Shown in pieces: positions 29,876-63,928 of a DNA stretch of 64,000 nt. A program made the translations under genes and the position numbers. The notes beneath the pieces are model-generated. The model was not told where the DNA came from and did no database searches. It saw only the letters and a list, made by a program, of their open reading frames with translations. Origin of the DNA: Nocardioides sp. SLBN-35 (GTDB lineage: Bacteria > Actinomycetota > Actinomycetes > Propionibacteriales > Nocardioidaceae). Within the stretch, counting starts at the first letter, position 1, and the number at the start of each line of letters is the position of its first letter. The stretch spans positions 868,001 through 932,000 of the forward strand of contig NZ_VFNU01000001.1 in the NCBI RefSeq assembly GCF_006715725.1. The letters are read 5' to 3'.

Positions 29876-30565
29876 GTGACGCAATCGCGTGAGGACGACC
29901 GGCGTGGCCGGACCGCTGCGGCGGCGATCGCCGACGCCGCCTTCCGGCTCTTCGCCGAGCACGGGTACGACGCCACCAGCGTCGACGACATCGCCGCCGC
30001 CGCGGGCGTGAGCCGCAGCTCCTTCTTCCGGCTGTTCGGGTCGAAGGAGATGGTGATCTTCCCCGACCACGACGCGATCCTCGCCGCGGTCGAGGAGCGC
30101 CTGGCCGCCTCCACCCAGAAGAGCGCGATCCTCGCGGTCTCCGACGCGGTGCGCGTCGTCCTGTTCCACTACATCGCCGAGGGCCCGCTGGCCCGGCGCC
30201 GCTACCAGCTGACCTCCACGGTCCCCGCGCTGCGCGAGCGCGAGCTGATCAGCGGTGCTCGCTACCAGCAGCTGTTCCGGCAGTACATCAGCGCCTGGGG
30301 CGACGGCTCCGAGGAGTCGGAGCGGCGCGGCGAGCTGATGGCGGCCGCCGTGGTCGCCGCCCACAACCGGGTCCTGCGGCGCTGGCTGCGTGAGGAGTGC
30401 GAGGACCCGCACGTCGAGATCGACGAGGCGATGGCGCAGGTCAATGCGCTCTTCGCCGCGCCGGCGGCGCCGCCCGCGACGGCCCCCGCAGCCCCCGGCG
30501 CCATCCTCGTCGTGCGCACCGACCAGGACCTCGCGGCGCTCGCGGAGCAGCTCCGGTCGCAGTGA
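29876..30565 (+). CDS. TetR-family regulator of acyl-CoA carboxylase
   Basis: 229 residues, GTG start after a G-rich Shine-Dalgarno run. [46 protein letters not shown]. The C-terminal tail is Ala/Pro rich. The divergent arrangement with beta-epsilon-alpha carboxylase genes and the shared operator resembles known TetR control of actinobacterial carboxylases (AccR/FasR type); which one it matches is not established here. Confidence 0.92.
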
Positions 30566-30573
30566 CCGGCCTG

Positions 30574-30733
30574 AGCCTCGATTCACCGATTTCCGGCTGC
30601 TCCGCGCCACCAGATGGAGCGTCGCCTGCGTTGCCGACGCTCGACAGACGCCCAGTCTGGCTTCGCGCCGGGCGCCTTGGCGCCGCACCCATCTTGTGAC
30701 GCTCGCGACGCGGCAAAACGGTGAATCGAGGCT
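30574..30733 (+). repeat. structured intergenic element, copy A
   Basis: 160-nt imperfect palindrome. P1 is 30574-30588 with 30719-30733 (15 bp). P2 is CACCAGATGG (30608) with CCATCTTGTG (30689). P3 is GCGT-TGCCG-ACGC (30628-30640). P4 is CAGAC-GCCCA-GTCTG (30645-30659). The conserved GTGACGCTCGCGACG follows P2. The copy at 63.6 kb has the same plan with different stem sequences. It lies between the TetR and SRPBCC genes. Confidence 0.8.
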
Positions 30734-30772
30734 GAGCGGCTGTCGTCGCCGCGCCGGGGTACCGACGCGTCC

Positions 30773-31204
30773 ATGCCGAGCGTCGAGCGTGTCATCGTCG
30801 TCCCCCGCCCCCTGGGGAAGGTCTGGGACTACCTGACCGACTTCACCACCACCGAGGAGTGGGACCCGCCCACCGTCACGACGGTGCGCACCTCCGGCGA
30901 CGGCGACGTCGGTACGACGTACCGGAACGTCTCCTCCTTCCTCGGCCACGAGACCGAGGTCGAGTACCGCGTCGTCGCCTGCGTGCCGCACGAGCTGTTC
31001 GAGCTCACCGGGACGGCGTCCGGCGTCGACCTGCGCGACACGATCCGGTTCGCCGAGGACGCCGGCGCCACGACGGTCACCTACCGCTCGCAGATCACGC
31101 CCCGCGGAGCCGGGAAGCTCGCGGCGCCCCTGGTCAAGGGCGGCCTCGAGCTGCTCGCGAACCAGGTCGCCGACAAGATCGAGGAGCGCCTGCTCCTCCT
31201 CTAG
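30773..31204 (+). CDS. SRPBCC-family protein
   Basis: 143 residues of the START/Bet v1-like fold: VIVVPRPLGKVWDYLTDFTTTEEWDPPTV at the N-terminus and LVKGGLELLANQVADKIEERL as the long C-terminal helix. It probably binds a hydrophobic ligand in the cytoplasm; no enzymatic motif is visible. It starts 40 bp after structured element A, which might influence its expression. The stop sits in a CTCTAG repeat shared with the convergent pseudogene. Confidence 0.85.
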   Translation: MPSVERVIVVPRPLGKVWDYLTDFTTTEEWDPPTVTTVRTSGDGDVGTTYRNVSSFLGHETEVEYRVVACVPHELFELTGTASGVDLRDTIRFAEDAGATTVTYRSQITPRGAGKLAAPLVKGGLELLANQVADKIEERLLLL

Positions 31205-63122: not shown

Positions 63123-63620
63123 CTAACGCAGCTCGAGACACCCCGAAGTCACCGGCTCCCACTCGATGCCGGCGTGCTCGGCGACCCGCTTGTCGAGGCC
63201 CGCGGCGATGTCGGCCGGCCAGGGGGCGGTGCGGCGATCGGCGATCTCGACGCAGAGGAAGATCTCCTCGAACACGCACGCCACCCGCTGGTTGGTGTCG
63301 TCGAGCACGAACACCAGAGCGTGGGCGGCCCGCTCGGAGCGCCCGAGCAGGCGCACCCGGACCGACATCTGGTCGCCGGTCCTCAGCTCGTGCAGGTAGG
63401 TCAGGTGGTGCTCCGCCGAGAGGCACGCGAAGCCGCTGAGCACGGGCCAGTTGAACGGGATCCCGATGTCGTAGAGCGACTCGTCGAGGCCCTCGCTGCC
63501 GATGCCGAGGTAGTGGCGCACGTTGAGGAAGCCGTTGCTGTCCTCGAACGCGCTGGGGACCGGCTGGACCGCGAAGGCCGGAAGGGTGGCGAGCTGGTCA
63601 TACGTCGGCTGCGTGCTCAT
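63123..63620 (-). CDS. acyl-CoA thioesterase-like hot-dog protein
   Basis: 165 residues, ATG start. 4HBT/hot-dog features: DSNGFLNVRHYLGIGSEG (Asp/His region of thioesterases), then SAEHHLTYLHELRTGDQMSVRVRLLGRS and VACVFEEIFLCVEI. It probably hydrolyses an acyl-CoA. No operon partner; element B lies upstream of it. Confidence 0.83.
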   Translation of the reverse strand: MSTQPTYDQLATLPAFAVQPVPSAFEDSNGFLNVRHYLGIGSEGLDESLYDIGIPFNWPVLSGFACLSAEHHLTYLHELRTGDQMSVRVRLLGRSERAAHALVFVLDDTNQRVACVFEEIFLCVEIADRRTAPWPADIAAGLDKRVAEHAGIEWEPVTSGCLELR

Positions 63621-63631
63621 GCCCCGGACCC

Positions 63632-63794
63632 TAGGGCATGGCCGTCGGCCCCGCGCCTGCTACGCGCCACGTCCGACTCGATCTGGCTGCGTTGGGGACG
63701 CTCGACGTGCGCCCAGCATGCCGTCGCGCCCCCGCCTTGCCAGATCGGCCGGACGTGACGCTCGCGACGGCACGGCGCCGGCGGCCATGCCCTA
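63632..63794 (+). repeat. structured intergenic element, copy B
   Basis: 163-nt counterpart of the element at 30.6 kb. P1 is TAGGGCATGGCCG with CGGCCATGCCCTA (63782-63794). P2 is 63668-63687 with 63739-63757 (CACGTCCG with CGGACGTG, CGATCTGGC with GCCAGATCG). P3 is GCGT-TGGGG-ACGC (63689-63701). P4 is CGTGC-GCCCA-GCATG (63706-63720). The stems differ from copy A but still pair; GCCCA, TCGA and GTGACGCTCGCGACG are identical. Confidence 0.8.
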
Positions 63795-63928
63795 CTGAAC
63801 CCGGCCGATGATTGGGCGGCGCCCGACACGCGGTCGTACCATGGGTGCACCAGATCCACTGCGTGTATCTACCTCGCGCCGGCTCGACCGGCGGTCCAAG
63901 GCGGCACCCGACCCCTTGGACGAAGGAC
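63795..63928 (+). promoter_or_regulatory. leader region of the last gene
   Basis: Together with element B this completes the 308-bp gap after the thioesterase gene. It contains a TGTATCTA stretch (about 63863) as a possible -10 region and an inverted repeat TCCAAGG (63895-63901) / CCTTGGA (63914-63920) ending just before the GAAGGA Shine-Dalgarno, which could mask it. No gene is seen here. Confidence 0.35.

Follow-up and report, generated by a model that had tools for sequence, protein, structure and literature searches.

Miniature elements are usually regarded as decayed transposons with a meaningless interior. The element described here resembles the bacterial MITEs of the IS5 family: it is short and gene-less, it has terminal inverted repeats and many dispersed copies, it is flanked by target duplications of 3-4 bp (TNA or CTAG), and one of its end types is common to IS5-family elements with DUF4096/DDE transposases. 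It differs from those MITEs in that several unrelated end types occur on one homologous core, and in that this core has a covarying, strand-biased fold. By most tests that can be made on sequence it would work like a MITE. ERIC, Correia and RUP-type elements are imperfect palindromic miniature elements of intergenic regions that can fold in transcripts. The present element is likewise imperfectly palindromic, intergenic and foldable; it differs in sequence and hosts, and ERIC, Correia and RUP-type elements are not known for a covarying core under differing end types. In IS200/IS605 or REP/REPIN systems a hairpin-ended single strand inserts without target duplication, and membership in these groups was rejected on account of TGA and CTAG duplications at empty-site comparisons. 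TIMEs are Tn3-derived, non-autonomous elements that have been shown to transpose and for which RNA folding has been predicted (PMC4133298). The element shares with them the lack of autonomy and the inverted repeats; unlike it, TIMEs are 262 bp long with 38-bp repeats and 5-6 bp duplications and belong to the Tn3 family (PMC4133298). A survey that gives 250 mobile or repeat candidates describes MRSC-65-2, with a long covarying single stem, many copies and a conserved UYCCGG repeat (PMC11109978). A single long covarying stem in dozens of copies per genome is also found here, but in contrast to that description UYCCGG is not conserved, having one occurrence in 12 of 97 elements and two in none of the 97; on the other strand it is present in 2 of 97 copies. 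The family may be among the 250 candidates of the survey, the comparison being with the description of MRSC-65-2 alone. A literature search over titles and the starts of abstracts, covering few subscription papers, returned no description of such an element. The Rfam search suggested by a preliminary description of the DNA found no family that matches the element: at gathering scores none of 4227 families matches the window, and at E ≤ 1 on four copy-bearing loci there is nothing in the element and one weak miRNA match outside it.

The window is a stretch of 64,000 nucleotides from Nocardioides sp. SLBN-35, in which the preliminary description had noted two copies, A and B, that share a plan and have unlike stem sequences. 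Both copies lie where it had placed them and are built as it had said (coordinates are those of the window, except where prefixed G000:C1 for the genome). The outer stem of copy A is 15 bp long (AGCCTCGATTCACCG at 30574-30588, paired with its complement at 30719-30733) and that of copy B 13 bp (TAGGGCATGGCCG at 63632-63644, paired with 63782-63794), as had been claimed, and the apical loop GCCCA is indeed carried on CAGAC/GTCTG in A and on CGTGC/GCATG in B, the latter with one G-T pair. The unit at A had been given as 30574-30733; an element is present there, and its bounds change to 30575-30732 plus a 3-bp duplication. The whole inserted element is thus 158 bp (30575-30732; minus, the best-folding strand; covariance-model match G000:C1:898592-898714) between a left TGA at 30572-30574 and a right TGA at 30733-30735. 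Sequence and a genome pattern search place its left terminal inverted repeat, GCCTCGATTCACCG of type T1, at 30575-30588 on the plus strand and the right one at 30719-30732 on the minus strand. Between the repeats lie a conserved junction motif, M1 (CTGCTCCGCGCC, 30597-30608, from alignments of 17 and 61 copies); the conserved TGCGTTG (30627-30633), which reads CAACGCA with unpaired A residues on the opposite strand in the 61-copy alignment and the fold; the apical hairpin CAGAC-GCCCA-GTCTG (30645-30659); the conserved CGCCTTG (30673-30679; CAAGGCG on the opposite strand), whose columns are invariant or nearly so in 61 copies; and GTGACGCTCGCGACG (30696-30710), conserved in the alignments of 17 and of 61 copies. 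Copy A is neighboured by a gene for a TetR-type regulator (29876-30565, plus strand, Pfam TetR_N) and one for a protein of polyketide cyclase or lipid-transport type (30773-31204, plus strand, Pfam Polyketide_cyc2). Copy B is 157 bp (63635-63791, minus strand; covariance-model match G000:C1:931652-931773) and has a thioesterase-like gene (63123-63620, minus strand, Pfam 4HBT_2) as neighbour. On its left is CTAG (63631-63634), presumed from the sequence to be a target duplication, and on its right CTAC (63792-63795), the duplication with one mismatch. In our reading, to which we give a probability of about 0.6, copy A represents one insertion, 158 bp long, of a miniature element present in many copies; IS5-type transposases likely move this element in trans, and selection likely preserves the rod-shaped hairpin predicted for its reverse strand.

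Mobility is indicated by empty sites. In two relatives, G104 and G034, both flanks of copy A are found at 85-90% identity and the element is absent. The site of A reads CCGGCC-TGA-(158 bp)-TGA-GCGGCTG and that of G104 reads CGGCCCGGACCGGCTG, the relatives having GGA in place of the TGA of A. Judged from these alignments, copy A is an insertion with a TGA target duplication. At two further copies, L046 and L050, CTAG is single in the empty sites of relatives and double around the element. The preliminary description had offered a structured RNA or a cruciform-forming mobile repeat; each of the two is supported in part, the mobile repeat by these empty sites and target duplications. L046 (G000:C1:1927364-1927484) and L050 (G000:C1:1925094-1925216) are inserted some 10-15 bases upstream of an ATG in a TAGNNT box, which we take to be -10-like. 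Since the duplication restores this box beside the gene, target choice may spare or rewire promoters. The junction of another copy, L040 (G000:C1:1921143-1921266), fits no simple duplication. Its left outer-stem arm coincides with the apparent last codons of a gene that is conserved in element-less relatives, and its right arm is a near-inverted copy of the left; this copy prompted the idea that host flank had been copied to form the outer stem, which was dropped as similar-ended copies sit elsewhere. Short derivatives also exist that keep the ends and are without part or all of the core. Those with little or no core are at G000:C1:2476902-2476957, 4559949-4560008, 5149811-5149881 and in the 4595657 region, and are suggestive of partial deletion of the palindrome.

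The terminal inverted repeats that form the outer stems fall into several types, unrelated to one another, on a single homologous core. Among these types, the T1 end is TNA followed by GCCTGGATCCACCG (also given as TNA followed by GCCTSGATYCACCG), T2 is CTAGGGAAGCGCTGATC, T3 is CTAGGGCGTGTCTCCCAAG and T5 is AGAGGTCCCGCCAATAGG. Copy A carries T1; the core of copy B clusters with T3 cores in a tree that leaves its own end untyped. Outer stems reach 15 bp or more, in some cases with mismatches, in 45 of the 46 copies of the own genome, and a clear outer stem is less frequent in the copies of relatives. A count of mismatches took in the copies whose outer stem was clear, 44 of 46 own ones and 54 of 69 from relatives. 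On a core tree made from few columns, with 41 of 92 inner branches open and an end type assigned to 73 of 97 rows, the seven end types need 12 changes (minimum 6; shuffle mean 41), so that end type mostly tracks core lineage and yet has switched more often than the minimum. Three copies within 5 kb (G000:C1:635845-640700) differ in end type.

A search of 11 genomes for DUF4096 (PF13340, IS5-type) gave matches in 5. The T3 end matches the ends of IS5-family elements in G104 and G034 over 16-20 bp. The T3 repeat of the G034 elements, CTAGGGCGTGTCTCCCAAGT, is one end of a G104 insertion sequence of about 1 kb whose other end is one base off (its ends, CTAGGGCGTGTCTCCYAAGTC, match the T3 repeat), and the G034 insertion sequence has CTAGGGCGTGTCTCCC in common at one end (first 16 bases) with one difference at the other. 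The proteins of these elements match DUF4096, and those of G104 and the own genome match DDE_Tnp_1 as well. The IS5-type element of the own genome has ends TTA/TAA-GAGATTCCGCGGGTAGG, which are similar, and no more than similar, to T5. Its four copies (G000:C1:4692996, 4727506, 4728660 and 5246076) are near-identical, about 1 kb long and have one transposase gene. A pattern search of the own genome that allowed up to 3 mismatches turned up no full-length insertion sequence with T1 ends, nor were paired T1 ends 0.7-2.5 kb apart found in 12 relatives with up to 1 mismatch; no insertion sequence with T2 ends was found in the own genome. Insertion, target duplications and the match of T3 to IS5-family ends together make this a MITE-like element, and one likely moved in trans by IS5-type transposases that would recognise the end repeats. 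The argument for such transposases is strong for T3 ends; for the T1 ends of copy A no matching insertion sequence was found. Each element lineage would then have taken its end repeats from an IS5-type element of its own, whose transposase it would borrow.

A covariance model built from 17 copies collected by sequence similarity has 46 matches at E ≤ 1 in the own genome (5.37 Mb), the weakest with an E of 3.7e-4; such a model and genome search had been proposed in the preliminary description. In a search of 58 genomes, the own and 57 relatives, matches occur in 37, that is in 36 of the 57 relatives. Under its stricter filters the own genome has 45 copies; up to 35 are found in one relative, and many genomes of the same genus have none. 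Copy A had no match in collections of plasmids and phages. The gene neighbours of the own copies, as delimited by a simple gene finder, are in all four arrangements (18, 12, 8 and 7; one unresolved). Because gene context is not kept, the core most likely serves the element itself. The family might instead be a host regulatory RNA or terminator that spread by duplication, with long hairpins adjoining genes and two checked copies in a -10-like CTAG site ahead of a start codon. The 46 dispersed copies, the target duplications, the many same-genus genomes without a copy and the varied gene arrangements all speak against this origin, as does a terminator consensus scan in which neither A nor B has a T-tract terminator, and we think it highly improbable. 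No site resembling a promoter was seen at A or B with a sigma-70 consensus scan, which fits actinobacterial promoters poorly.

The core of about 110 bp is predicted to fold into a rod-shaped structure in an alignment, A4, of 61 copies on the reverse strand. Of 97 copies that have a stem and are 155-178 long, 87 were non-redundant; 69 of these entered the alignment, 18 divergent copies (T8-type copies and some others) being left out by name; A4 excludes eight odd rows of the 69. The matches were gathered with a pairing-aware model, which favours paired copies; the model was built on the other strand. In A4, 93.0% of stem cells are paired, against 69.8% in shuffles and 29-45% when the structure is slid, and both sides have changed in 52 of 63 pairs. 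The covariation score of 0.582 is reached by none of 500 shuffles, for which the value is 0.174, and sliding the structure gives no more than 0.108. With 200 dinucleotide shuffles of the opposite strand per copy, z is -7.1 for copy A; for copy B it is -12.2. Together with the matches across the genome, these values bear out the earlier suggestion that the structure exceeds chance. Helix 1 consists of the exchanged ends, so that part of the covariation is trivial; the inner helices covary in their own right, helix 4 at 17 of 23 pairs.

Outer and inner stems change differently. Among 39 copy pairs at 5-10% core divergence, which are not independent of one another, the outer stem has 140 double Watson-Crick changes, 19 other double changes and 58 single changes, and the inner stems have 14, 6 and 144, respectively, with double changes catching up only at greater divergence. 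This pattern indicates that outer stems switch as units and inner stems change stepwise, as expected of outer stems that are exchanged or arm-copied and of a core maintained by compensation. The initial claim that covarying stems reflect selection on structure is upheld for the inner stems, where compensation is stepwise, and is unsupported for the outer ones, whose terminal-repeat types are swapped whole. For repeat families in general the lesson is that covariation in exchanged ends has to be told apart from that in slowly compensated cores. After a change in one end, the opposite hairpin arm is probably copied from it by template switching; such arm-to-arm copying would keep the ends matched and let end types be exchanged as units. 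One study reports that template switching can give rise to perfect hairpins and to multibase compensatory changes, and can also preserve them (PMC8794818). Might copying alone suffice, the family being an ordinary IS5-derived MITE whose stems are paired by arm copying in replication and whose folded molecule has no function? The switching of outer stems as units at low divergence, the making and keeping of perfect hairpins reported for template switching, and the derivatives that arose as if by palindrome deletion agree with this. It is nonetheless unlikely: single changes exceed double ones in the inner stems at low divergence, the internal-loop motifs, which arm copying would erase, are some of the best-conserved parts, and copying predicts no excess of G-U over A-C on one strand that is independent of replication direction.

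Such an excess is present throughout most of the structure. A G-U (or G-T) pair is tolerated in a hairpin on one strand, and the same changes read A-C on the other. On the reverse strand the outer 16 pairs of 83 of 115 copies have 33 G-U against 3 A-C, the first few pairs being paired by the stem picking itself. Helices 2-6 of the 61 copies have 196 against 15, or 65 against 14 when four wobble-rich pairs are removed. In A4 the outer helix has 53 against 21, a weaker bias than in the pairwise test, and the apical helix is biased in the opposite way (3 against 16). Folding energies point to the same strand. The minimum free energy is -97.8 on the minus strand and -84.4 on the plus strand for copy A, and -132.0 and -116.6 for copy B (63631-63794). 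All 61 copies have their lower energy on the reverse strand, with RNA and DNA parameters alike; so do all 21 of the further class copies with sequence (of 23) and all 12 that were read from other classes. The observation made at first holds, and the best-folding strand is the reverse of the one on which it had been read (below, the reading strand). A cruciform, which had also been considered, would draw on the two strands alike and so does not explain the strand bias. The bias is similar in copies oriented with replication (G-U to A-C 19:3) and against it (12:1), and so belongs to the element; on the same grounds we discarded an origin in replication-strand damage or in the cleavage of lagging-template mismatches. 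In the outer stems, on the reading strand, in addition to the excess of A-C over G-T, C-C mismatches exceed G-G (29:4 in own copies, 48:9 in those of relatives), partly from conserved inner positions. The set of avoided mismatches is, we presume, that cut by the actinobacterial mismatch enzyme NucS.

The structured RNA that had been one of the two initial options gains from a core covariation unmatched in 500 shuffles and from a strand bias such as single-strand folding would leave. On the reverse strand 33% of unpaired positions are A, against 9% of paired ones, conserved unpaired A residues occur within CAAGGCG and CAACGC, and one inner pair is U-G in 29 of 61 copies and G-U in 17. The core would thus be selected as a folded reverse single strand, and on the proposed model this is more probably RNA than single-stranded DNA, a ranking made because of the wobble pairs and the A-rich loops. 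Two points favour DNA, namely the participation of the outer pairs and the connection with replication. An RNA spanning the outermost pairs would need a transcription start beyond the element or right at its border.

The orientation of copies relative to replication is a second fact, separate from the strand bias. With dnaA at 300.7 kb in the own genome, some genome lengths rounded, and linear or broken chromosomes taken as running outward from dnaA, 97 of the 128 copies listed in 13 genomes are so placed that fork and reading strand run the same way. Among the copies listed, seven genomes together have 78 of 101 with the fork (own 34 of 46, G025 22 of 26, G032 7 of 8, G001 2 of 4, G027 3 of 3, and G267 and G303 5 of 7 each), and six further genomes have 19 of 27, with just 2 of 6 in G389. 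Own copies between divergent or convergent genes follow the fork in 22 of 26 cases, which leaves neighbouring transcription as no easy explanation. Possible leads to the cause are template switching, whose induced form in E. coli is reported to be stronger on the leading strand (PMC6357072), and the reported binding of the sliding clamp by transposases of many families (PMC4549789).

These orientations bear on two further alternatives. The selected molecule may be the reverse strand as single-stranded DNA, for instance a transposition or replication intermediate, and not RNA. Consistent with this, the pairing bias spans the outer 16 pairs, which always lie within a full-length DNA strand (with the first few biased by picking), orientation follows replication in the majority of copies listed and in own copies between divergent or convergent genes, and DNA energy parameters also favour the reverse strand throughout A4. 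The target duplications at A and two other copies suit a double-strand DDE transposase, however, the A-rich unpaired positions and the alternating U-G and G-U pair are RNA-like, and the mismatch bias is independent of replication direction; we regard the DNA alternative as doubtful, if far from negligible. The second alternative is that copies are lost unless the hairpin of the lagging-strand template is at its weakest, strand and orientation bias both reflecting the loss of strong hairpins. A reading strand that runs with the fork is, by standard replication geometry, the lagging-strand template, and it is this weaker-folding strand that does so in the excess of copies listed; deletion derivatives are present as well. 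The minority orientation has a G-U to A-C ratio like that of the majority, which weakens this explanation, and inner-stem pairing is upheld by compensation, so that hairpin loss appears quite improbable as the source of both biases.

The fold reaches beyond the genus. A class-wide search with a second model (E ≤ 1e-4) found the element in 89 of 394 genomes and 26 of 137 genera, and a phylum-wide search (E ≤ 1e-6) in 26 of 396 genomes and 17 of 237 genera, 17 of these genomes lying outside the class; the own genome is included in each case, and copy counts are lower bounds, as scoring was limited to seven candidates in each genome. From other classes 12 copies were read; 11 of them retain GCAAGGC, a motif of the core, and their ends are unlike those of A and B. 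Beyond the preferred reading of copy A, a wider proposal, which we advance tentatively and at somewhat less than even odds, is that these are phylum-wide gene-less transposons whose sole cargo is a conserved structured RNA (or single-stranded DNA fold) serving their own spread, and whose end repeats are swapped as cassettes for different IS5-type transposases. In this element it is the interior that is conserved and the ends that vary, with a strand-specific fold in several classes of one phylum. If the proposal is true, a gene-less transposon carries a working RNA-like structure, and the family lets one ask directly whether the success of a miniature element can lie in its non-coding interior. 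The copies also form a large natural data set on the upkeep of near-perfect palindromes in genomes. Nine of the 12 copies from other classes (L386-L397) contain UCGAAUGC, which is slightly like a tRNA T-loop, where the Nocardioides copies have GCGYAGCAGGC.
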